A stretch of DNA of 31,657 bases from positions 1 to 31,657 of IMG/VR virus record IMGVR_UViG_3300027969_000289. The stretch is one strand, 5' to 3'. Shown one piece after another: positions 1,672-20,355 of the stretch (positions within the stretch are counted from its first letter, which is position 1; every line of letters begins with the position of its first letter). The notes under the pieces were generated by a model. That model saw only the letters and a list, made by a program, of their open reading frames with translations, made no database searches and was not told where the DNA came from. Both the position numbers and the translations under genes were made by a program. The DNA comes from a virus.

Positions 1672-1873
1672 CATTATCCTTCATGCTACGAATGATTCCA
1701 GTCACTTGAATGCCGTCGAATTCGGCAAAGGACTCGGCGTCGAACTTCCGCGCCACTTCTTCCACCACGCTGTTGAAGATCTGCTGCAGCGCGGCGCGAG
1801 CCATTCGCTCCTGCTGCTCGTTCTCCAGCAGCATACCGAAACGGTCGGCGTACCAGCGGTCGAAATCGGTCAT
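1655..1873 (-). CDS. Small acidic phage protein, 72 aa
   Basis: Starts MTDFDRWYADRFGMLLENEQ in an ATGA overlap with the last codon of mazZ, which makes this start preferable to the longer frame opening at 1915. It looks all-helical, with a helix AALQQIFNSVVEEVARKF and a C-terminal helix before KDNDEIPR. No family is recognised. Position directly after mazZ suggests co-expression with the nucleotide genes, not necessarily a shared role. Confidence 0.65.
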   Translation of the reverse strand: MTDFDRWYADRFGMLLENEQQERMARAALQQIFNSVVEEVARKFDAESFAEFDGIQVTGIIRSMKDNDEIPR

Positions 1874-2358
1874 GGTACATGCCTCATTATCCGTGTGTTC
1901 TCGTCCACCCGCCACGAGCGTGCCTCGTTAATCTCCATCTTCTCCTCTATCGCCCGGTGGATGTCGATCCCATTGCGGCCCGCCACGTCGAGCAGCAGGA
2001 TCATAACATCCCCCAGCTCTAGTGCCGATTTCGGATTACGTGCGTATTCGCCGATCTCCTCGTAAAGCTTCAGCAGGATGTCCGCCGTGGACCGCTCCGG
2101 GAATTTCTCGTCCGCCCACTTCGTTATCCGGTCCTGTAATTGCCGGATGTCCGCGCCGCCCCGGCGCTTGTAGGCGTTCACCGCCCGCACGACCATGTCC
2201 GCGTTCTTGTCGCAGTTGCCGATCACGCCACGCAGGTGGTGCCGGACCTCGAATGACCCGACCACCGCGCCGTGCGCGTCCAGGACGTTCGCCCCGTCCG
2301 CTGCCCACGGCAGCTCGTTGGTCTCGTCCGTGTGTACCGTCGATTCTACTTGCAGCAT
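1870..2358 (-). CDS. mazZ: MazG/DUF550-type nucleotide pyrophosphohydrolase (MazZ-like), 162 aa
   Basis: Residues about 72-160 match the MazG-like all-alpha NTP pyrophosphohydrolase pattern: metal-binding E100-E101-x-x-E104 (YEEIGEY) and E114-x-x-D117 (ELGDV), then an N-x-A-R-x-W segment and a terminal R-H-V typical of DUF550 proteins. Family members hydrolyse (d)NTP to (d)NMP; in Z phages MazZ turns dGTP into dGMP, the substrate of PurZ. Residues 1-65 form a separate piece (W-x-x-x-G-x-x-V-x-D-A-x-G ... A-V-N-A-Y) resembling stand-alone small phage proteins, so this looks like a fusion. I start at the ATG at 2358, six bases after GGAG; an ATG 12 bases upstream lacks a ribosome site. It overlaps the end of purZ, so the two are translated together. 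The MazZ assignment rests largely on this context. Confidence 0.8.
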   Translation of the reverse strand: MLQVESTVHTDETNELPWAADGANVLDAHGAVVGSFEVRHHLRGVIGNCDKNADMVVRAVNAYKRRGGADIRQLQDRITKWADEKFPERSTADILLKLYEEIGEYARNPKSALELGDVMILLLDVAGRNGIDIHRAIEEKMEINEARSWRVDENTRIMRHVP

Positions 2359-3452
2359 TTTGTACTCCATATATCCATGATTGCCTCGATCCGCATTGTT
2401 CGGCTGAGGTGATTAGTGCGGTACACGTCATCGTGTGTCGGCCCCGTGCCCACCCAAGCGATGATTGTACCACTGGACTCCAGCCGGTTAATGATCCCGA
2501 ACATCTCGTCCTTTGCCCGCACATAATTGATGAAGTTGAGGAACGTGTGCGTCGCGTTGCAGTACCGCACCGCCTCGGTGATCTGCTTCTCGCTGAATGT
2601 GAAAATCCGCCTCGGCAGCTTCGTCACCGTCGTCAGCTCCACCTTTTGCCCGATCTCCTCGAACGTTATCTCCACCTGATCATCGTAGCACGGCCCGCTG
2701 TACCCCACTTGCGTGCCCTCGGTGTCGAACCGATTGGCGACTCGAATCGGGTAGGTCCGCGCCGTGCCGACCACGTTAAATATCGCCGGTCTGTGGATGC
2801 CCTGCATGACCATCGACGCCGGGATACCGCAATCGGCCAGTATCTGCCACGTGCTCACGTCGCGCGAGGTGGTGTAGGGGTAAAAGCCGTGGTACATCGA
2901 GAGCCCGTAGCCCTGCGCCCCCTCGATCAGCGTATTGTCGGCCATGCCCAGCAATTCGCGGTACTCCTGAGTCGTGACCACAAACGCTTTGAGCCGGGGC
3001 TCGTTCGCCGCAATGTTCGCCGTATCGGGGTCGCGCCGGATGCGCTCGATCGCCGCCGCGCCGACGCCCTTTTTCGTGCTGCCGATCTTCGTCATCGGCC
3101 CCGCCTCTTCGTCACGGTGACGCTGGTAGACGATCGCCGCGTGCGGGTGAATCGCGATCTGCGCCTGCCCAATCACCTCCCGGCAGTCGTGTATTTCCTG
3201 CAATAGCTGATCGGTGTCGATCATCGAGCCCGGACCCAGCAGCACCCGGCGCAGCATGGGCGAGACCACGCCGTTGGCCAAGTGCGTATGAATGAACTTT
3301 CGCCCCCGGCTGCTGACGTAGGTATGCCCCGCGTTCGGAGCCCACGCGGTGATGATCGTGTCGGGCATCTCGTGCTCGGCCAGCCACCCCGCGATCAGCC
3401 CTTTGCCGGTGCTGCCGTACTGTAAATCCACCACCATCGTTATCGATTTCAT
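2346..3452 (-). CDS. purZ: PurZ: 2-amino-2'-deoxyadenylo-succinate synthase, 368 aa
   Basis: Homologue of adenylosuccinate synthetase that in Z phages condenses dGMP with aspartate on the way to dZMP (2-aminoadenine deoxynucleotide). Visible motifs: N-terminal QYGSTGKG (residues 11-18), where PurA has QWGDEGKG, so Ser14 replaces the catalytic Asp; NAGHT (40-44) with the conserved His43; IGSTKKGVGAA (123-133); IEGAQG (176-181); YPYTTSRD (191-198); LPRR (279-282). The Asp-to-Ser/Gly change is the published hallmark of PurZ, needed to accept dGMP. At 368 aa it is shorter than bacterial PurA (about 430), as expected for PurZ. The start at 3452 has AGGA eight bases upstream; the longer frame would run into the polymerase gene. 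It lies between the polymerase and mazZ with overlaps on both sides. Confidence 0.93.
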   Translation of the reverse strand: MKSITMVVDLQYGSTGKGLIAGWLAEHEMPDTIITAWAPNAGHTYVSSRGRKFIHTHLANGVVSPMLRRVLLGPGSMIDTDQLLQEIHDCREVIGQAQIAIHPHAAIVYQRHRDEEAGPMTKIGSTKKGVGAAAIERIRRDPDTANIAANEPRLKAFVVTTQEYRELLGMADNTLIEGAQGYGLSMYHGFYPYTTSRDVSTWQILADCGIPASMVMQGIHRPAIFNVVGTARTYPIRVANRFDTEGTQVGYSGPCYDDQVEITFEEIGQKVELTTVTKLPRRIFTFSEKQITEAVRYCNATHTFLNFINYVRAKDEMFGIINRLESSGTIIAWVGTGPTHDDVYRTNHLSRTMRIEAIMDIWSTKCCK

Positions 3453-3457
3453 ACTCT

Positions 3458-5296
3458 CTATCCTTTTGCTTGATACCAATCATCACCGATACCCCAATCG
3501 CACGTTATTGGCACACGCAAGTGAATGGGGCACGACACTCCGTCGAATGCCGTGTAAATCTTCGCTATCTCTTCCGCATGGTCGCGGGAATCCGTGTCCA
3601 GCGATATCCCCACCTCGTCGTGCACGGTCAGCAGCAGCCGCCCGCACTGGTGCTCGGTGAGGTAGCGGTGCAGCTCGATAAGCTTCACCTTCATGCAGTC
3701 CGCACTGGTGGCTTGGTAGATCAGCCCCGACGCCTTGTGCGCGAATTGCCCACCGGGGAACCGGATGTGCCGATCCATGATCGAGTGCACGAACCCGCGC
3801 TCTTTCGCGATCCCCGTCGCCTTCATCGCGTTGTTGCGCATCCCGGGGTTCGCGGCGTGGTACTTGTCGAACAGCTCCATGGCCTCGGGTCCGGCACGCA
3901 GGAACACATTCCCGCTCGGCCCGGTCTCCTCCGTGTACGGCAGTCCGCACTCCTGCGCCAACCGGCCCGCCCCCATGTTGAACGCCAGCCCTAGATTAAT
4001 CGCTTTCGATGACGGACCCCCGGCGTACTGCGCGTTCCGGGGGATACCGGTCATGTCCGAGACGAGCTGGTGAAAGTCAAGACTCGGGTTTTGTGCGTAC
4101 GCTTGAAGAATCGCGGGTACCTTACCGTAATGGTTAGCAACACGAAATTCAAACTGGCTCCAGTCCAGACCCAGCCAATCTGCCCCAAAGTCTGGCTTGA
4201 ATATGGGGCGCACCAGCGACTTAATATGTTGATCGCGGGACGGGATTTGTTGAAGAGCGGGATTTGTAATACTAAGTCGCCCAGTTCCGGTTCCAGCCTC
4301 AGCGTCGTTTTTAGTCTGGTTATAGTTGCAATGAATGATGCCATCGTGTTGGTGTCCTAGTATGTGTCCTTGCAGGAATGTGTCGCGAGTCTTGAGCATC
4401 TTGCGCAAGTCCAGTATCATAGCCGCCGCCGGGTGCTTCATCCGGCGCAAGCAGTCCGCGTTAACCGACGCCTTGCCCCCGTCCGTCTTGTCGGCGCGAG
4501 TGCCGTCGATCAGATACCACTCATTGTCGTCGCCCAGCGTCGGCTTGAATAGCTCGGTGATCGATCCGGACGGGTTCGGGTTGACCTCGAAGCCCGCCAA
4601 GGTATTCAGATCCCGCTGCGCCTTCTCGACGCGCGTCGTGAGCCCCCGGACGGCCAACTCGGCCTGATCGACGTCCACTCGCACCCCGCCGGTCTCCATG
4701 TCGAGAATGACGGGCATGAGGTCGCGCTCCAACTGGTGAATGCGGTGAATCTTTTGCTTCTCGATCTCCCCCACCTGCCACTGATACAGCGCCCGCGTCG
4801 CCACTGCGTCCTGAATCGCGTACTTCGACACTAGCGCGACTGGGGCACGGGAAATGTGGGGCATCTGCACGTTCCGAGTGGCGCGACCACCGAATATCTT
4901 CGCCATCTCGTCGTATATCTCCTCGTCCTTCTTCTGCCCCGCGTATTTACGGGCCAAGAAGTCGAGCGAGTAGGTCGGCTCGTGCTCACTGATCAGCGCC
5001 GCTCGAATCATCGTGCAGTCGATCCGGTCACCCGGGAGCTCGATTCCGGCGCAGCGCAGGAAGTGGCAGTCGAATTTCAGATTATGGCCGACCCACACCC
5101 CGACACGCTCCTCGCGAATCAGGTCGCGCAGCCAGTCGATGACGTAGGGGTCGGTGCGAACGTCCCAGTACATACCCTCACCTTCGGGCAGAGCGATGGA
5201 AATACCGAATAGACGGTCCTTCCACCACTGCAGCCCGGTGGTCTCGGTGTCGATCACCATATAGGGGACCGAGTCGATGCGGGGGAAAGCCGACAT
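3458..5296 (-). CDS. dpoZ: Family A DNA polymerase with 3'-5' exonuclease (DpoZ type), 612 aa
   Basis: Replicative PolA-type polymerase. Exonuclease motifs: Exo I D16-x-E18 (DTETTG), Exo II HNLKFD (D76), Exo III Y159-x-x-x-D163. Polymerase motifs: A LDWSQFEFR with D378; B SSKAINLGLAFNMG with K431; C TVHDE with D560. There is no 5'-3' exonuclease domain. Motif B is unusual: no Arg four residues before K431 (Gly instead), Leu at the position of E. coli F762 and Phe-Asn at that of Y766-G767. Polymerases next to purZ are the DpoZ group, in which the proofreading domain is proposed to favour Z over A; that link is by context. The start at 5296 overlaps the TGA of the SSB-tailed gene (TGATG); the frame extends 51 codons upstream, but that part is a shadow of the neighbour. 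Confidence 0.92.
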   Translation of the reverse strand: MSAFPRIDSVPYMVIDTETTGLQWWKDRLFGISIALPEGEGMYWDVRTDPYVIDWLRDLIREERVGVWVGHNLKFDCHFLRCAGIELPGDRIDCTMIRAALISEHEPTYSLDFLARKYAGQKKDEEIYDEMAKIFGGRATRNVQMPHISRAPVALVSKYAIQDAVATRALYQWQVGEIEKQKIHRIHQLERDLMPVILDMETGGVRVDVDQAELAVRGLTTRVEKAQRDLNTLAGFEVNPNPSGSITELFKPTLGDDNEWYLIDGTRADKTDGGKASVNADCLRRMKHPAAAMILDLRKMLKTRDTFLQGHILGHQHDGIIHCNYNQTKNDAEAGTGTGRLSITNPALQQIPSRDQHIKSLVRPIFKPDFGADWLGLDWSQFEFRVANHYGKVPAILQAYAQNPSLDFHQLVSDMTGIPRNAQYAGGPSSKAINLGLAFNMGAGRLAQECGLPYTEETGPSGNVFLRAGPEAMELFDKYHAANPGMRNNAMKATGIAKERGFVHSIMDRHIRFPGGQFAHKASGLIYQATSADCMKVKLIELHRYLTEHQCGRLLLTVHDEVGISLDTDSRDHAEEIAKIYTAFDGVSCPIHLRVPITCDWGIGDDWYQAKG

Positions 5297-5591: not shown

Positions 5592-5620
5592 ATTATATCA
5601 CCACTGGGGTGACCCGTCAA
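5592..5620 (-). promoter_or_regulatory. Sigma70-type promoter for the SSB-like/dpoZ/purZ/mazZ operon
   Basis: On the minus strand TTGACG, 17 bp, then a perfect TATAAT preceded by TGA (extended -10 pattern TGn). It lies in the 74-bp gap upstream of the SSB-tailed gene, pointing into it. It fits initiation about 25 bp before that gene's ribosome site. Confidence 0.8.
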
Positions 5621-12032: not shown

Positions 12033-12061
12033 TTGACACCGTTCGGGGGGACTGCTATAAT
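12033..12061 (+). promoter_or_regulatory. Perfect consensus sigma70 promoter on the plus strand
   Basis: TTGACA, exactly 17 bp, TATAAT: a full consensus match, the best in the window, yet it points rightward, against every gene, into the GTTCCA repeat region. Transcription would start near 12068. No convincing gene lies downstream on this strand. A primer RNA, an antisense/regulatory RNA or an origin-activating transcript are possible roles. Confidence 0.72.
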
Positions 12062-12090: not shown

Positions 12091-12119
12091 ATTCTACCAC
12101 AGCGCCCTCGGAACATCAA
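12091..12119 (-). promoter_or_regulatory. Promoter for the primase gene, TTGATG-17-TAGAAT
   Basis: Minus-strand TTGATG, 17 bp, TAGAAT preceded by TGG (extended -10). The string TGTGGTAGAAT is identical to that in the promoter at 25127-25156. It lies at the left edge of the repeat region; its -35 overlaps one CTCGGAACATC repeat, so a protein binding there could control primase expression. Confidence 0.68.
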
Positions 12120-12425
12120 CCCCGACCGTTTGTTCCACCGTTCCATCGCAATGGAACACAGATGGAACAGCCTCCCCATTCGAAGACACCATACTTGTTC
12201 CACCGTTCCATGCGTACGCGGGTGAAGAGAACTGATTGCTTAACCCAGATATGGGGAGATATATGGAACAGATGGAACAATGGAACACAGTCTCGGTCTT
12301 CGAATGGAGAGAGCACTCCGAGCCGTTCCAGACGGCGTTCCATCATCATGGAACAGTTGGGGTATCTGGGGATTCTCTCGTGTATGCGTATGTTAGAGAA
12401 GCCTCTCGGAGGCGCTCGGAACATC
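12107..12425. repeat. GTTCCA/TGGAAC repeat region: candidate origin or operator array
   Basis: Twelve exact hexamers in about 225 bp: GTTCCA at 12132, 12140, 12197, 12205, 12325, 12337 and TGGAAC at 12152, 12163, 12264, 12273, 12281, 12349. Two form palindromes with identical geometry, GTTCCAT-N4-ATGGAAC (12140-12157 and 12337-12354). A 17-bp direct repeat TTGTTCCACCGTTCCAT occurs at 12130-12146 and 12195-12211, 65 bp apart. Half-sites are often spaced 8, 9 or 11 bp. The region is framed by CTCGGAACATC (12107-12117 and 12415-12425). It contains no credible gene and separates the structural and replication modules. Confidence 0.85.
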
Positions 12426-12450: not shown

Positions 12451-14421
12451 CTACTGCGGCACCTCGGTGACCACCGGCTGACCCTCGGGCGGGGCTTCGA
12501 CTGGTTCTTGGTTCTTCGGCGACCTAGAAGCCACGCCAGCACCTACTGCGGCAGCGCCAGTGTTGGTAGCCATCGTGGCGTTCACCAGCGCGGCTTCCTG
12601 AGCTTTGAGACTGCTTAAAATGCTTTCCTGCACTGGATCGAGCCCTGACTGCGAGGTGAGCAGCTTCTGAGTCACTCCCGCATTTACCTGTGGTGCTATA
12701 CGACCGGCGGGGAGTGCGGCCCGTGCGGCTTCTAGCGCCGCCCCCATCGGGTTGCCGGTGGCAAGATTCATCGCAGCGCCCACCGCCGTATTGTTGCCAA
12801 GATCGGCATCTATCGGAGTCCGACGAATGGCCGTTTTTTCGGTTCCGAGCATCTTGGACTCTTCCTGCAGTCGTGCCACAAACGTGTCGAACGCGTTGTC
12901 ATCTCGAAACGCTCGGCGCAGCTTCTGCTCGGCGTCACGGCCCAGCACGACTTTGAGCGGATCGGACCCCGGTGCGGCGGTGCGCAGCTTCTCCAACGCG
13001 GCTTGAGCGATACCGGCGCGAAATGCGTCGTACTCGGACGGGCTGTTCTTGAATCGATCGATCATCTTGCGCATATCGATCTCGGGCATCTTGTAGATGT
13101 TCTTACCCTCTTCCATCGCCGTCATCATCTCCGAATCCCCGGCGTAGGCTTGGCGTGCAGTCCGGTACTCCGGTGACGCTTTCTCCATGTCGGCGAGTAA
13201 CTGGCGCTTCATGTCCAGCAGAGTCTTAGCTTGCCCTTTCTCTCCTGCTCGCATCGCCTTGTCGATCATGTCGTCTATCGCGATCTTGGTCTCGTGCAGT
13301 CCGCGCAGCACGTTTTTCGGGTCAGTAATGTCCAGCCCCATGTCTTGCATTCGGCGCGACCCGGCTTTAAGTGCCTCGGCGAACGACGGGAAGTTCTGCA
13401 TCCGGGCGATACCGGCAGCGTTCTTGGGTGTGATAGCGGCGTTAGAGTCCCACGCGGCTTGATACAGCACGTCGGCGTCTTTGGACCGCTTGGCCGCGAG
13501 TTCCATAACATCAGTGTAGAAATCTTTCGATCCGGACATGAGCTGCACGAGGTCGGCGTCGACACGATTAACACGCCCCGCTTCGCGAGCTTGCAGCTCC
13601 GACTTTGCTGCGACCCGTGCCGGACCGGGCTCGGAAGTAGCGCGGCGGAGCAGCGCGGCGGTGTTCTCACCCACATCCGCCAGCGTCATCTCGCCACGGG
13701 CAGCCGCCTTGACGGCGTCGAGCGCTTGCTGCGGGGTCATCCCGTCCTTGGCCAGCGCTTTGACGATCTGCAGGTCCGCCATTTTGTTCGCGTCTCCGAA
13801 TCCCAGTGCACTCTTGAGTGCCCGATATCCGGGCATTACTACGTATTTACCCGCAAGACCGAGCACTCCGGTGGTGGCCGCGCCCGCCGCAGCGCCCCGC
13901 GCCGCTTCGCCGCCCCAGTCCTCCGCTGGCTTCTCAGTTGTGCCCACCGCACTCACCGCACCAGTGCCCGCGCCGATGCCGAGCATCTTGAGCACCGATG
14001 GAGCCATGGTCTTGACCGCTGTGCGACCAGCCGTGGGGATCATTGACGCGCCGCCGGTGACGATCGCCGGAATCATACCCCCACCGACTTCTGCCGCAAA
14101 ATTGGCCACGGGGTGCTCTTCTCCATACTTTCGCTGCGCTTCGCGCTCTGCTCGCGCGTAATCCTCGTAAGATCCTTTACCGAACATCGATCGCGCTTTG
14201 GCGATCGCTTCATCGGAGAACCCCATAGTTAAGCCTTGCAGCGCAGCACCACCCGCGCCGGTGAACACCGGCTCAACGTTGGATTTGGGTGCGGCTTGCG
14301 ACGCCGACTGCACAGCCGGTGCGCGATTGGTTTTCTGCGCTACAAATCGATTAATTACCGCCTCGGATGTACCGTCCGGGAATTCGTAAACCACACCGTT
14401 TACTGCGCGCTCTATTGTCAT
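12451..14421 (-). CDS. Internal virion / ejection-type protein, 656 aa
   Basis: Begins MTIERAVNGVVYEFPDGTSE; the FPDGTS-x-x-x-I motif near the N-terminus is common in phage internal virion and DNA-ejection proteins. An alanine/glycine-rich amphipathic section (about 100-210, with GGGMIPAIVTGGASMIP and GAAAGAATTGVLGLAG) could insert into membranes, followed by a long helical body. The C-terminus is P/E/A-rich and disordered. Three more such proteins lie upstream, matching podovirus-type internal cores that form a channel on injection. It starts in an ATGA overlap with the previous gene and is the last structural gene before the repeat region. No transglycosylase motif is seen. Confidence 0.72.
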   Translation of the reverse strand: MTIERAVNGVVYEFPDGTSEAVINRFVAQKTNRAPAVQSASQAAPKSNVEPVFTGAGGAALQGLTMGFSDEAIAKARSMFGKGSYEDYARAEREAQRKYGEEHPVANFAAEVGGGMIPAIVTGGASMIPTAGRTAVKTMAPSVLKMLGIGAGTGAVSAVGTTEKPAEDWGGEAARGAAAGAATTGVLGLAGKYVVMPGYRALKSALGFGDANKMADLQIVKALAKDGMTPQQALDAVKAAARGEMTLADVGENTAALLRRATSEPGPARVAAKSELQAREAGRVNRVDADLVQLMSGSKDFYTDVMELAAKRSKDADVLYQAAWDSNAAITPKNAAGIARMQNFPSFAEALKAGSRRMQDMGLDITDPKNVLRGLHETKIAIDDMIDKAMRAGEKGQAKTLLDMKRQLLADMEKASPEYRTARQAYAGDSEMMTAMEEGKNIYKMPEIDMRKMIDRFKNSPSEYDAFRAGIAQAALEKLRTAAPGSDPLKVVLGRDAEQKLRRAFRDDNAFDTFVARLQEESKMLGTEKTAIRRTPIDADLGNNTAVGAAMNLATGNPMGAALEAARAALPAGRIAPQVNAGVTQKLLTSQSGLDPVQESILSSLKAQEAALVNATMATNTGAAAVGAGVASRSPKNQEPVEAPPEGQPVVTEVPQ

Positions 14422-16430
14422 TTGCTCACCTCTTTGCCGTTCGCATCCACTTGAACCCGTGGAGCCGCGAAGTATTGCTCGAATGACATTCGCTTCGGGT
14501 TGATAATAATCGCACCTTTGGGATCGCGTGTCGTAATCGGATTCGCTTCCAAGTAACTGCGCCAGTGCGTCTGCGCCTCGGCCCCGATGTTGCCATTCAC
14601 TGCGGCGTAGCGATTGAGGTATTTGTAGTACTCTCGATCGCGTTCACGTTGCGCGAGCTTGAACTCAATAATGGTCTTATTGGTAATCGGCTCCTTATCG
14701 GAGCTGAACGTGCCGAGTTGCATCATCTTCACGTCCAGATTCGACACGTTGCTATCGCCGGGAATACGGTTCTGCTTCGCAGCCAGCGCCGAGAGCGAGT
14801 CAAATTCGTTGATAATCGCGCGATCGCCGGACAACACCTTAGCCACACCGCCGACACCGGGCAGGCCATAAGTGACTCCGGACGAGATCTTCTTGCTAAG
14901 CTCCAGCGCCCGTTTCAAATCGGTGATATCGTCGTCCACGGTGTTAATCAGTGGCTGCACCTTCTCGAGCAGGTATTTCTCCGCCGCCTCGCGCTCTTTG
15001 ATCTGCTGGGCCACGATCTCCTTCGCATTCATATTCCTGAATCGCGACATATCGCCGACCGGCACACCTTGGCCTTTGGCCGCAGTCAGCAATGGAGTGG
15101 TGTCGCCAGTTCGCGCCGCATCCGCGATCTTGGCTTGAAGCTCCTTGATCTCCAGACTTCCCTTGAGCAAGCCTTGTTCCTTGGCCTTGCGATCCAGTGG
15201 CGCGTTCTTGGCATCCTCTTGCGCCTTCAGCACTTGTGCCTTCTTGAGCGCCGCATCGTCCGCGATCTGGGCTACCTCGCCTTCTGCTTTCTTAACTTGC
15301 GCGGCTTTAAGCGCTTGGTCCTGCGGCAGCATCGACACCTTACCTTGCGCTTCAGCCAGTTGGGCGGCTTTAAGTGCTTGGTCTGTAGGTAGTGCCGCCA
15401 CCTCAGCCTCAGCCTTCTTCAGCAGCAATCGCTTGGTCTCCGCATCGACCGGTAGTAAATCGACTTCTGCTTGCGCTTTGGCAATCAGCAGCTGTTTCGC
15501 CTGCCTCTCCAGCGGAGCCATTTCGGTTTGAGCCTCCGACGCTTTCGTAGAAGCACCAGATGCCTTGATTTGCGCTTCTTTGGACTCGGCCTCCAACTTA
15601 TTGATCTTGTCGAGATAATCTGCCGCTTTCTTTACATCATCCGGGTTAGTGAAATCGCCGCGCATAGCGTCCAACACCTTGGCCAACTCCGGAGAGTTCT
15701 TGCGGAATTCATCCTGCTGCAGCGCCTTCTGCGCCGCTTGCAACCCCATTGGCGTATTGAGGTCGACACCAAGCACCGACGCGATCTTGCGTAATGGCTC
15801 CTGCTGCCGGTAGGTCTGGTACGCCGTGTTAAATCGCGGGTCAGCGGGGTTGATGCCCGATTGCGCCGCGAACGTCTTCATGTCTTCGGTCGCCGCTGTC
15901 AGCGAGGTGATCTCTTTCACCCGTGCGATACCGGCGGGTGATGTTGGATCAATACCCTCAGCTTGGACCTGCTGTTGCACAGCGGTAAGCTTCGGCGTGA
16001 GCTTGGACGCCACGTTAAGGCCCATCGTAGCCGCTGCTTGCTCATCTCCTAGCCCCTGTCGCGCCAGCTCGTAGCGCATTTTGGCCAAGTCTCGAATCCG
16101 CTGCTCATCGGCGACTTGCGCTGTGGCGTAGTTACCAGCCGCAGTACCAAGTGATTCGCCGAAAGAGCCGGTGCGGGTTGGTGCTAGGAACCCTTGTGCC
16201 AGCGCCAGCATGCCGGGGTCCAGTCCGGTGCGCCGCGCCGAGAGCGCCTCGGTCATCGCCAGCCGCGCATCATCCACATTTTTCTTGGCGACGTCGTACT
16301 CGTCGGTGTTCGCCCCCATGGCGGCACGCCCCAAAGCGGCTAGCGACAGGCCGGGGATGTCCTTTTCCCCGACGCGCAGCATCTTAGCCAGCAGCGGGCT
16401 ATACGATGAGTCTACGGTATCTTCAGCCAT
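14418..16430 (-). CDS. Internal virion protein with five 21-residue helical repeats, 670 aa
   Basis: Almost wholly helical. The first 120 residues include an ordered part (SPLLAKMLRVGEKDIPGLSL, LAQGFLAPTRTGSFGESLG) typical of environmental podophage internal proteins. Residues 314-418 are five back-to-back 21-residue repeats (pattern KAEAEV-x-x-LP-x-D-x-x-x-K), three heptads each, forming a long coiled coil with regular LP-x-D kinks. The C-terminal 200 residues look globular and end QVDANGKEVSK. Inferred role: structural rod or channel component ejected with the DNA. ATGA-coupled to the next gene, 12 bp after the previous one. Confidence 0.7.
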   Translation of the reverse strand: MAEDTVDSSYSPLLAKMLRVGEKDIPGLSLAALGRAAMGANTDEYDVAKKNVDDARLAMTEALSARRTGLDPGMLALAQGFLAPTRTGSFGESLGTAAGNYATAQVADEQRIRDLAKMRYELARQGLGDEQAAATMGLNVASKLTPKLTAVQQQVQAEGIDPTSPAGIARVKEITSLTAATEDMKTFAAQSGINPADPRFNTAYQTYRQQEPLRKIASVLGVDLNTPMGLQAAQKALQQDEFRKNSPELAKVLDAMRGDFTNPDDVKKAADYLDKINKLEAESKEAQIKASGASTKASEAQTEMAPLERQAKQLLIAKAQAEVDLLPVDAETKRLLLKKAEAEVAALPTDQALKAAQLAEAQGKVSMLPQDQALKAAQVKKAEGEVAQIADDAALKKAQVLKAQEDAKNAPLDRKAKEQGLLKGSLEIKELQAKIADAARTGDTTPLLTAAKGQGVPVGDMSRFRNMNAKEIVAQQIKEREAAEKYLLEKVQPLINTVDDDITDLKRALELSKKISSGVTYGLPGVGGVAKVLSGDRAIINEFDSLSALAAKQNRIPGDSNVSNLDVKMMQLGTFSSDKEPITNKTIIEFKLAQRERDREYYKYLNRYAAVNGNIGAEAQTHWRSYLEANPITTRDPKGAIIINPKRMSFEQYFAAPRVQVDANGKEVSK
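15177..15491 (-). repeat. Five tandem 63-bp (21-codon) repeats inside the internal virion gene
   Basis: Codes for residues 314-418 of the 670-aa protein; the five units have the same length without indels and share LP-x-D and A-x-x-x-K positions. The repeats are diverged at DNA level, so the protein pattern is conserved by selection more than by recent duplication. Confidence 0.7.
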
Positions 16431-16442
16431 GTTTATCCCTTA

Positions 16443-17732
16443 TTAGTATGACCAATAATCCGAACCGTCTTCGGGATTTATTTGCCAGCTGCCGCCGGGG
16501 TTGATGTAATCATTGGCGTCGTAAGCAGGCTCAGGCTCAGTGTAATTAAAACTATTCTGCCAATCGGTCCACAAGCTTGGGTCCAGACCGCCGGTCGCCT
16601 CGTACTGCGTGCCGCTTCCCGTGCCTCCGAATCCACCACCGGCGCGAACGTCCTCGCCGTAGGTGCCGTACTGCTGCCCGCTCGGCCCGTATGTCTCCGC
16701 AGCGCTTTGACCTGTGGACCCGGCGTTAGTGGAGCCGCCGTAGTATGCGTCACCAATACCCGAAGTGCCACCCGAAGTGCCACCCGAAATGCCGCCAACG
16801 CCCGAAGTGCCACCCGAAGTGCCACCCGAGCCCGGCACTAACGATCTAAGACCGGTGTACGCTTGTCCCACTAAGTTAGCGAAATTGCTCGCAGCACTAC
16901 CCGTGCCGCCAGCGCCCGACGCGAACAGGGTGCTAAGACCGGCGATCTGCGAGAGTGGTGAGTTAGAGTACGCGCCGGGTATTGGTGCGTTAGCGATCTC
17001 GTTCACGGTGCTCGGCACTTTTAGATTGGTGAGCAGATTCGACGCATTGGTCGCCATGGTCATGGGTGCATTGATGCGGGCTTGCGCTAACTCCTGTTCG
17101 TTCTTGCCCATCCCATACATAGCCTCAATATCTTTCAGCCCGAGTGTTTGCGCGGTAGTGCCGAGTGCACCGGCGGTGGTCGCAGCGGTCAATTCCCTGT
17201 TTTTTTCCGCTTGCGCTGCAGCGAGCGCTGAGGAGTAGCCCGCCGCCCGATACTGGGCCTCAGTGTTAGTTAGGTCTCTCTGCGCGTCAGCCATTGTCTG
17301 ACCGTATATCTCTTGGCTCCGCTTTGATCCGAAGTCACCGGCGGTTACACCACGAGCAGCGGCCATCGGCGCGATGTTATTACGAATGTTGCGCTCGCCA
17401 GTATCCCTAATTCCTTGAATCACGTTGCTTTCGTACGGATTCATGAAATTCTGCACCGTATCGGCTGCGGACCCAGCGCCAGCGCCAAGGTAGGTGTTGG
17501 CCTTACCCAAGAATGGCTGGTAGGACGCCCCAGCTTGGGGAGTGGCAGCTATAGCCCCAGATTGTAGTGGGGAGAACCCAGCGACGAGCTGCTCCGGCGT
17601 GCGTTGCATCGCGTTAGTGCCGGTGTCCGCAAGATTCTTGAGATACGCGGTGTACCAATCCGGAGCCGCAGTGGCCGTGGATTTGGTAGTGGTAATATTC
17701 GGTAGGGGATCACCCTGCATCAATCCAGCCAT
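16443..17732 (-). CDS. Virion protein (podophage internal/tail type), 429 aa
   Basis: The core (about 100-200) has FMNPYESNVIQGIRDTGER followed by AAARGVTAGDFGSKRSQE, matching the N-P-Y-x-x-x-V ... G-x-F-G-S/G-x-R motif I recognise in virion proteins of many environmental podoviruses; the AAAQAEKNRELTAAT region after it is helical. The last 130 residues are very Gly/Ser/Thr/Tyr-rich, with repeated GGTSGG units and YGPSGQQYGTYGED, so probably disordered. It ends one base before the start codon region of the next gene upstream (17734), inside a tightly packed structural block. The exact virion location is not known. Confidence 0.68.
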   Translation of the reverse strand: MAGLMQGDPLPNITTTKSTATAAPDWYTAYLKNLADTGTNAMQRTPEQLVAGFSPLQSGAIAATPQAGASYQPFLGKANTYLGAGAGSAADTVQNFMNPYESNVIQGIRDTGERNIRNNIAPMAAARGVTAGDFGSKRSQEIYGQTMADAQRDLTNTEAQYRAAGYSSALAAAQAEKNRELTAATTAGALGTTAQTLGLKDIEAMYGMGKNEQELAQARINAPMTMATNASNLLTNLKVPSTVNEIANAPIPGAYSNSPLSQIAGLSTLFASGAGGTGSAASNFANLVGQAYTGLRSLVPGSGGTSGGTSGVGGISGGTSGGTSGIGDAYYGGSTNAGSTGQSAAETYGPSGQQYGTYGEDVRAGGGFGGTGSGTQYEATGGLDPSLWTDWQNSFNYTEPEPAYDANDYINPGGSWQINPEDGSDYWSY

Positions 17733-17733
17733 A

Positions 17734-20355
17734 TTAACCTCTCATGTATGCCAATGGCGATTTAGCCTTCGGCGGGATTTTGTTCGCCGGAGCCGACCGC
17801 TTGTGTTTTCGAATCGCTTCTCTCATTGCGTCTAACTTCTTCGCGCCTTCTTTGTTCGAACCATCACCCAACGCCGCTACAATGTCCGCATCGAACACGT
17901 ACTCACCATCAGCTAGTCGGGCGTCAATCAGGTCATCCTGTCCACCCCCGGCCCCTTGCACGTAGTGTGACCCCTTGTGCGGGACGTCCCCACCGGTCGC
18001 TACCATTAAAGGTGTCGCCATTATACCACCACCGGATGCTTTGCGCACGACCCGGTTTGCTGCAACTAGGGGACTTGGGACGGAACCACCCTTTTTCAAT
18101 TGCAGGTTAGTCGAAATATCCGGCACATCGCCGTAGGCGTAGTAGTCAGGCTTTAACGAGTTATCGCTTGTAGTTTGAGTATCGTCCATATTTTCGCTTT
18201 TCGAGATAGAGGGCGAAGTCGCACTCAACGGGTCAATTGCGGATTTCCCCGCCTTGGCTGAAGTTCCCGTACCGCCTAGCCAAGATTCTTTCAGAGACGA
18301 ACCGGAGCTGCTAGACGTTCCAGACGAGCCGCTATCCGAACTGGCACTAGTCCCGGCGGCACCGACAGCCGGTATCGATAGAGTGCTAAGAGGTGAAGAT
18401 GGCGTGACGGGCGCTGCGGGAGTCGGCGTTGGAGTCGGCGTTGGAGTCGACGCTGGAGCCGGGGTAGAAGGAGCAGATGAAGAGCCTTGAGAAGAGCCTC
18501 GAGAAGACCCCTCGCTTATCGCCCTATCTATTTGACTTTCAATGCTGTCGCCCATATCCGTAACGTTGCCCGTGGATGTGCTGCTACCAAGGCTTGAGCC
18601 AACGTAATCACTGACAGCGTTTATAGGGCTTTGTATGGCTCCGGCTATTTTGCCGGTTGTCCCCCAATTTAAATTCCCTGCTTTAAGAGTATTATTGACT
18701 GCCGAGGGAACGCCCAATTCGCTCAGTCCTATGGTTACCAGCCTAGGATCGATGCTGTACGTCTTAGATATGTCTTTGACGGCGTAGCCCATCAATTGGC
18801 CGGTGATAGCATCCGCGAAATTACCATTAATTAGCGCTGTCAAAGCCGACGGGGTGGTGCCAATCATTGGGGCCAGTTTGTTGATGCCAATTCCAGTGAC
18901 CAAATCGCCGATAGACATTTCTCCAGACAACAGCTTGGCAGCCATCGTCACCATACCGTAGCCCGGGATGAAATTTTTAGCAGCGCCCCACACTTTCTCA
19001 GCGAACCTCGCGGCGTCGGTAGCCGCCACCACGCTCTCCGCAGTCTGTCCGGGCTCGTTGTACGTCAGCCCACCCACTGGCGTACCATCGCCCCCCATAA
19101 CGGATAGGCCAGTACCCGGCATGTTATTGAGATTAACGCCGGTGAGGTTCCCGAGACCCAGTGCCTGCAACTGCTTAGCCTCGCCGTAGCTGATAGCAGC
19201 GTTACCATCTTCCCCAGTGTACCCAAGGAAGCTCGCAATCGGTATGTTGGATGTCAGTGTGGTTACATCCCTAGTGGATTCCTCCGCGTTTTTGCCTGCT
19301 CCGATTTTCGTGGTTTGCTGATTCAGCCCGGAATCGACTGCGGCTAGTGCGGCGTTGGTCAGGCTGGTCCCGACGTTAGGGCTATTGACGTTGTATTGTT
19401 CGCCCGGTTTGGATAGTGCGACCTCTTTATCTTTCGCCACTTGTGCTAGGAAGCTCCTGACCGTCTCCTGATTTGCCAGTGCGTTAGCGTTCTCCGGCGT
19501 CATCTGGCCCGCACTGGACATCACCGCGAGGGGTGACGGAGCAGCGGGTTCAGTAGCGGCAGGGGCTGCCGCCTCAGTCAGTGGTGACGGAGCAGCGGTC
19601 GTGGCATCGGGTGATGAGGGGAACTGGCTTAACGCGGAAAGCGGAGCGGCAGGGGCTGCTTCTGGTGCTGATTGCGTGATAGGCTGCCTTGCAGCTTCAG
19701 CATCTGCGGCGTCCTTCTCTGCAGCGAGCCGTTGCATCGTCGCATCTCTTGCGTCTTGCGATGCTTTTTCTGCGGCAGCTCTATCTGCAGCATCTTGCGT
19801 AGCTCTTGCATCGGCGGCGTCCTGCGCGGCTTTCGCCTCAGCAGCAGCTTGCGCCGCTTGCTCTCGTGCGGCTTGCTCTCGGGCGGCTTGCTCCGAGGCC
19901 ATCTGAGCCTCTCGGGCGTCTCGAGCTGCTTGCTCTCTGGTCGCTTGCTCCCGAGCCGCTTGGTCGCTGGCAGCTTGTTCTCGGGCCGCTTGCTCTCGTG
20001 CGGCTTGTTCTCGAGAAGCCTGCTCCGCCGCCATTTGGGCATCTCGAGCTTCCCTAGCTGCTTGCTCTCGAGAAGCCTGTTCCCGAGCCGCTTGATCTGC
20101 TATCGCTTGCCTATTGGCGGCTTCGGCAGCGGCGGATTCTGCTGCTTCTCGTGCTTGGGCAGCCGAGTCACGGCCACCACTAACTGCTGCGCTACCACCC
20201 CCGGTGTCAGTCGACCCGTACCCTTCGTTAGAGCGTAGAGCGTTTCTTGTATCAGAAGATTGAGAGCTAAGCCCGCCGCCACCGCCACCGCTACTGCCAC
20301 CACCGCCCATGTAGCAGTGGCCTAGCAGCTTGCGTTTTTGCTCAAGAATGTTCAT
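17734..20355 (-). CDS. Large low-complexity virion protein with A/E/Q/R coiled coil and C-terminal DGEYV domain, 873 aa
   Basis: N-terminus has a poly-Gly patch (residues 17-28). Residues 64-222 are an A/E/Q/R coiled coil of degenerate REQAA units; then P/A-rich linkers, a more ordered centre (about 290-560) with hydrophobic helices (LGYTGEDGNAAISYGEA, GYGMVTMAAKLLSG), and a second Ser/Pro/Thr linker with TPTPTPTP. The last 90 residues (GQDDLIDARLADGEYVFDADIVAALGDGS ... GAKKLDAM) match a C-terminal domain common in phage internal or minor tail proteins. Probably another ejected core protein. It starts in an ATGA overlap with the GNAT-like gene. Confidence 0.72.
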   Translation of the reverse strand: MNILEQKRKLLGHCYMGGGGSSGGGGGGLSSQSSDTRNALRSNEGYGSTDTGGGSAAVSGGRDSAAQAREAAESAAAEAANRQAIADQAAREQASREQAAREARDAQMAAEQASREQAAREQAAREQAASDQAAREQATREQAARDAREAQMASEQAAREQAAREQAAQAAAEAKAAQDAADARATQDAADRAAAEKASQDARDATMQRLAAEKDAADAEAARQPITQSAPEAAPAAPLSALSQFPSSPDATTAAPSPLTEAAAPAATEPAAPSPLAVMSSAGQMTPENANALANQETVRSFLAQVAKDKEVALSKPGEQYNVNSPNVGTSLTNAALAAVDSGLNQQTTKIGAGKNAEESTRDVTTLTSNIPIASFLGYTGEDGNAAISYGEAKQLQALGLGNLTGVNLNNMPGTGLSVMGGDGTPVGGLTYNEPGQTAESVVAATDAARFAEKVWGAAKNFIPGYGMVTMAAKLLSGEMSIGDLVTGIGINKLAPMIGTTPSALTALINGNFADAITGQLMGYAVKDISKTYSIDPRLVTIGLSELGVPSAVNNTLKAGNLNWGTTGKIAGAIQSPINAVSDYVGSSLGSSTSTGNVTDMGDSIESQIDRAISEGSSRGSSQGSSSAPSTPAPASTPTPTPTPTPAAPVTPSSPLSTLSIPAVGAAGTSASSDSGSSGTSSSSGSSLKESWLGGTGTSAKAGKSAIDPLSATSPSISKSENMDDTQTTSDNSLKPDYYAYGDVPDISTNLQLKKGGSVPSPLVAANRVVRKASGGGIMATPLMVATGGDVPHKGSHYVQGAGGGQDDLIDARLADGEYVFDADIVAALGDGSNKEGAKKLDAMREAIRKHKRSAPANKIPPKAKSPLAYMRG
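19690..20166 (-). repeat. Low-complexity repeat coding A/E/Q/R coiled coil
   Basis: Codes for residues 64-222 of the 873-aa protein; units of REQAA/DQAA/DAREAQM recur throughout, with matching short DNA repeats of the type GCTTGCTCTCGxGC on the plus strand. Such DNA is prone to slippage, so unit number may vary between relatives. Confidence 0.65.

Follow-up and report, generated by a model that had tools for sequence, protein, structure and literature searches.

Certain phages replace the adenine (A) of their DNA with 2-aminoadenine (Z), a system that is already known from phiVC8, S-2L, and SH-Ab 15497. In S-2L, the gene cluster runs purZ-mazZ-datZ, MazZ is without an N-terminal domain, and the phage carries PrimPol and no DpoZ. 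The phiVC8 cluster has a primase gene between dpoZ and purZ, and its pyrophosphohydrolase is MazZ-2 rather than MazZ-1. In SH-Ab 15497, the ssb gene follows dpoZ, and MazZ has the domain architecture DUF5664-DUF550. The hallmark of DpoZ consists of three insertions together with residues L455, F459, and G548 in phiVC8 numbering (PMC8599892). MazZ-1 proteins often bear N-terminal fusions (PMC8342488), and among isolates DUF5664 is a named fusion partner of MazZ (PMC12884076).

Here, we describe a locus from one virus record that was examined as a single window, that is, the whole stretch of 31,657 bases. We are highly confident that it is the Z-DNA cluster of an uncultured tailed phage, in which A would be replaced by Z; what is new is the lineage. 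The closest isolates are SH-Ab 15497 and its relatives (47% identity for DpoZ, 46-47% for PurZ, and 46% for the MazZ domain), with which the window has in common DpoZ, PurZ, MazZ, a UvrD-like helicase, SSB, and gp32-34-like neighbors, and with which its relatives also share DatZ. Yet in the window ssb precedes dpoZ and the N-terminal domain of MazZ appears to be different, and in many relatives of the window, unlike SH-Ab 15497, datZ is followed by genes for a zinc ribbon and a deacetylase-fold protein. The overlap of purZ and mazZ, the downstream position of datZ in the relatives, and the active-site residues of PurZ and MazZ recall S-2L, while the helix-O insertion and signature residues of DpoZ recall phiVC8, whose PurZ is approximately 41% identical.

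Results

Nearly all large genes of the window lie on the minus strand. According to the open reading frame lists and the sequence, the order of transcription is ssb (5559-5296), dpoZ (5296-3458), purZ (3452-2346), and mazZ (2358-1870). The single-strand DNA-binding protein encoded by ssb, the first gene of the operon, matches PHROG phrog_7364 (E 2e-15). The next three open frames, at 1870-5296, encode DpoZ, PurZ, and MazZ, as the sequence-only reading had placed them, with family scores far beyond chance. That reading described the three genes as overlapping. This is true of purZ and mazZ, which overlap by 13 nt, with GGAG preceding the mazZ ATG at 2358, but dpoZ and purZ are 5 nt apart (dpoZ stop TAG at 3460-3458, purZ start ATG at 3452) and overlap only if TTG at 3479 is taken as the purZ start. 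Upstream, ssb and dpoZ share a single base (TGATG at 5298-5294). The mazZ start, MLQVES, is kept in most relatives, and an alternative ATG lies at 2370. Ahead of the four genes is a strong sigma-70-like promoter on the minus strand (5592-5620; TTGACG-17-TATAAT with an extended -10 TG) that matches 11 of 12 consensus bases. Of 12 other loci that we checked, 9 have a similar promoter, located at -322 to -352 relative to dpoZ. The four genes are probably transcribed together from the promoter ahead of ssb, and the tight spacing and this one conserved promoter support the proposal that dpoZ, purZ, and mazZ are expressed in a coupled manner. The window yielded neither an Rfam match nor a tRNA.

The purZ gene (2346-3452, minus strand) encodes a putative succino-amino-deoxyadenylate synthase of 368 amino acids. 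Its product scores 345.4 bits against the curated NCBIfam model NF038379 (cut-off 300), and its PHROG label is 2-aminooxy adenylosuccinate synthetase (6.8e-82). By sequence, its best relatives of solved structure are the PurZ proteins of S-2L (7odx, E 2.8e-81) and phiVC8 (6fm1, E 6.6e-75). Ser14, located within GSTGKG, replaces the catalytic Asp13 of E. coli PurA. T274 corresponds to the conserved T273 of S-2L, and the residue equivalent to S-2L position 308 is Asn, as it is in phiVC8 and SH-Ab 15497. In a PurA/PurZ tree, which had been proposed as a check, the protein branches among the PurZ sequences of phages, separately from PurZ0 and from E. coli PurA (starred branches); the outgroup branch of this tree is long, and archaeal PurA was left out. 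These observations support the identification of the product as PurZ, for which condensation of dGMP with aspartate is predicted.

Two alternatives can be weighed against this evidence. All three proteins come from broad families that also include cellular proteins, and the locus might thus serve ordinary purine metabolism, with a catalytic PurA, a housekeeping MazG, a normal PolA, and A-containing DNA. This is extremely improbable given that Asp13 is replaced by Ser and that the PurA equivalog model reaches 95 bits against a cut-off of 396, whereas the PurZ model is passed. The second alternative is a PurZ0-type pathway like that of Arthrobacter phage Wayne, which involves DutZ/DmtZ and a different DpoZ. 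PurZ0 proteins are related to PurZ and have the catalytic Ser in common, but the tree separates them from the PurZ of the window, the polymerase scores only 19 bits with the model built on that other group of DpoZ proteins (cut-off 350), and PurZ is accompanied by MazZ and DatZ rather than by DutZ/DmtZ (gene sets from PMC12884076), leaving this pathway with next to no probability.

The polymerase gene, dpoZ (3458-5296, minus strand), encodes a phiVC8-like family-A DNA polymerase of 612 amino acids with a 3'-5' exonuclease. It scores 775 bits against the curated NCBIfam model NF038380 (cut-off 500), and the ordinary PolA model falls far below its cut-off. Among solved structures, the best relative is the DpoZ of phiVC8 (7pbk), at 457 bits versus 135 for Klenow. 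Residues L435, F439, and G524 match phiVC8 L455, F459, and G548. With regard to the insertions, that of helix O is present, that of the fingertip is present but shorter, and the palm loop is comparable. The combination of the helix-O insertion and the three residues is absent from the four non-Z polymerases that were compared, and in the tree the protein falls within the DpoZ of Z-phages, apart from four non-Z PolA sequences (100/98). Because related PolA proteins without a Z-cluster exist, such as that of phiJL001, which shares part of the DpoZ signature (PMC8599892), a preference for dZTP is not proven by sequence alone.

An argument can be made that selectivity of DpoZ or removal of dATP is weak in this lineage, such that replacement would be partial and the genome would contain a mixture of A and Z. 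The selectivity of DpoZ is without a single residue determinant (PMC8599892), and motif C of the window's polymerase is the ordinary HDE instead of the HDS of phiVC8. Nevertheless, the DpoZ of SH-Ab 15497 also has HDE and is reported to be selective for dZTP (PMC8599892). Together with the conservation of datZ described below, this makes a mixed genome quite unlikely.

The mazZ gene (1870-2358, minus strand) encodes a predicted MazZ-1/DUF550-type (d)GTP pyrophosphohydrolase of 162 amino acids. Its product matches the Pfam dATP/dGTP pyrophosphohydrolase family PF04447 with 42.9 bits (cut-off 23), and its best solved relative is S-2L MazZ (7ody, E 2.4e-14). Residues E101, E104, E114, D117, I120, D124, K140, R147, and W149 match S-2L MazZ; E101/E104/E114/D117 correspond to the metal ligands and I120/D124 to the guanine-contacting Ile and Asp described for that enzyme (PMC8342488). 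The catalytic domain (residues ~70-162) is preceded by a fused domain of some 70 amino acids at the N terminus (2150-2358, minus strand), which is conserved in 50 of 61 relatives and for which we found no PHROG, family, or PDB fold match. The predicted structure of the whole protein is of low confidence (pLDDT 73, pTM 0.44), with a PDB match (7ody) for the MazZ domain only. A Pfam search did not match DUF5664 in this protein, and the N-terminal fusion therefore appears to differ from that of the isolates.

With four DatZ proteins as queries, tblastn detected no datZ within the window. A collinear sister contig, L003, is 92% identical to the window at the nucleotide level over 5.7 kb. Base 1 of the window corresponds to L003 base 7127, and an HD-domain DatZ is encoded at L003:7293-7856. 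If the phage resembles its sister, the window contig ends approximately 165 nt short of datZ, and a dATP triphosphohydrolase would thus be the fourth gene of the cluster. Being outside the window sequence, datZ was not among the genes named by the sequence-only reading. Of the 62 relatives, 61 encode DatZ close to purZ/mazZ, which weighs further against a mixed genome; in the exception (L045), little sequence remains behind mazZ.

A scan of IMG/VR returned 62 contigs, several of them 55-59 kb long, that encode a PurZ with 45-99% identity to that of the window. The order helicase-ssb-dpoZ-purZ-mazZ-datZ is conserved across nearly all close relatives, and both PurZ and DpoZ of the window group with environmental relatives in their trees. 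In the phage collection, the 18 records with a MazZ match were all PurZ phages. Similarly, among the matches listed, those to DpoZ above 400 bits all came from PurZ phages, and the next scored 227 bits. That matches of such strength to MazZ and DpoZ are confined to Z-phages also speaks against ordinary purine metabolism. In bacterial genomes, which were searched for a clue to the host, PurZ was found in three contigs of metagenome-assembled genomes only, all distant (33-45%) and hence uninformative as to the host. Values of dN/dS between the window and L003 are 0.011 for PurZ, 0.029 for DpoZ, and 0.015 for MazZ, reflecting strong purifying selection and hence maintenance of the three proteins by selection.

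Additional genes lie behind datZ in the relatives. A gene for a histone-deacetylase-fold hydrolase (PF00850) follows datZ in 48 of 62 relatives (L003:8080-8967, beyond window base 1), and in most close relatives an NrdR-like zinc-ribbon gene (87 amino acids; L003:7820-8083) lies between the two. The model of the deacetylase-fold protein is confident (pLDDT 88.8, pTM 0.87), and a structural match to it is HdaH of Vibrio cholerae (9gky, E 4.6e-15). Zinc deacetylases are expected to have a histidine pair, a D-x-H, and a later Asp, all of which are invariant in the proteins of the relatives. Searching the phage collection recovered deacetylase relatives only in Rhodococcus phage E3 and four huge-phage records, none of them among the PurZ records listed, and the gene was not found in the collection's isolated Z-phages. 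It is present in 48 of the 50 relatives from the clade whose MazZ has the N-terminal domain and in 0 of the other 12, a pattern that shared descent explains as well as a role of the deacetylase in Z metabolism would. We regard it as doubtful that the zinc ribbon, the deacetylase, and the MazZ N-terminal domain are additions to the Z-cluster that aid replication or packaging of the Z-genome, in which case the deacetylase might act, for example, on polyamines or a DNA-binding protein.

Elsewhere in the window, 10 of its 20 TGTTCC/GGAACA sites are concentrated in ~310 bases (12110-12418) upstream of the primase gene. Most close relatives have 5-11 of these sites at the equivalent position, where 0.2-0.6 would be expected, and the cluster resembles the iterons of an origin of replication, or an operator. 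A promoter matching the sigma-70 consensus at 12 of 12 bases (12033-12061, plus strand) faces away from the primase and against nearly all genes. Of 14 relatives, 13 have a comparable promoter at a distance of 53-57 bases from the start of the primase gene, and its spacer contains a CCAC...GTGG inverted repeat. Downstream of the promoter, we saw no conserved open reading frame; its product is therefore possibly an origin primer or an antisense RNA. Four large genes on the minus strand (12451-20355; 656, 670, 429, and 873 amino acids) had no counterpart in Pfam and hardly any in PHROG, although the C-terminal part of the 873-amino-acid protein retains 47-61% identity across relatives.

Discussion

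Family models, relatives of solved structure, active-site residues, trees, and co-occurrence agree on the assignment of dpoZ, purZ, and mazZ that had been made from sequence. By analogy with phiVC8, S-2L, and SH-Ab 15497, MazZ would convert dGTP to dGMP, which PurZ would condense with aspartate to form N6-succino-2-amino-dAMP, and enzymes of the host would carry this intermediate to dZTP. DatZ, predicted to be encoded just past the contig end, would remove dATP, and DpoZ would copy the genome with dZTP preferred over dATP, thereby placing Z where A would otherwise stand. Virions of this phage would then contain Z, and their DNA may be protected from restriction. With regard to restriction-site avoidance, a possible sign of Z-DNA, GGCC, AGCT, and other sites are mildly under-represented in the window, and the relatives show almost no such under-representation except of CTAG.

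Our analysis adds to the Z-DNA phages an uncultured lineage that has contigs of 55-59 kb and is not represented by any isolate in the phage collection that we searched. The analysis also brings to light accessory genes behind datZ, none of which were found in isolated Z-phages. More generally, the approximately 60 sequence-diverse sets of PurZ, DpoZ, MazZ, and DatZ provide material for testing what determines the selectivity for Z over A.
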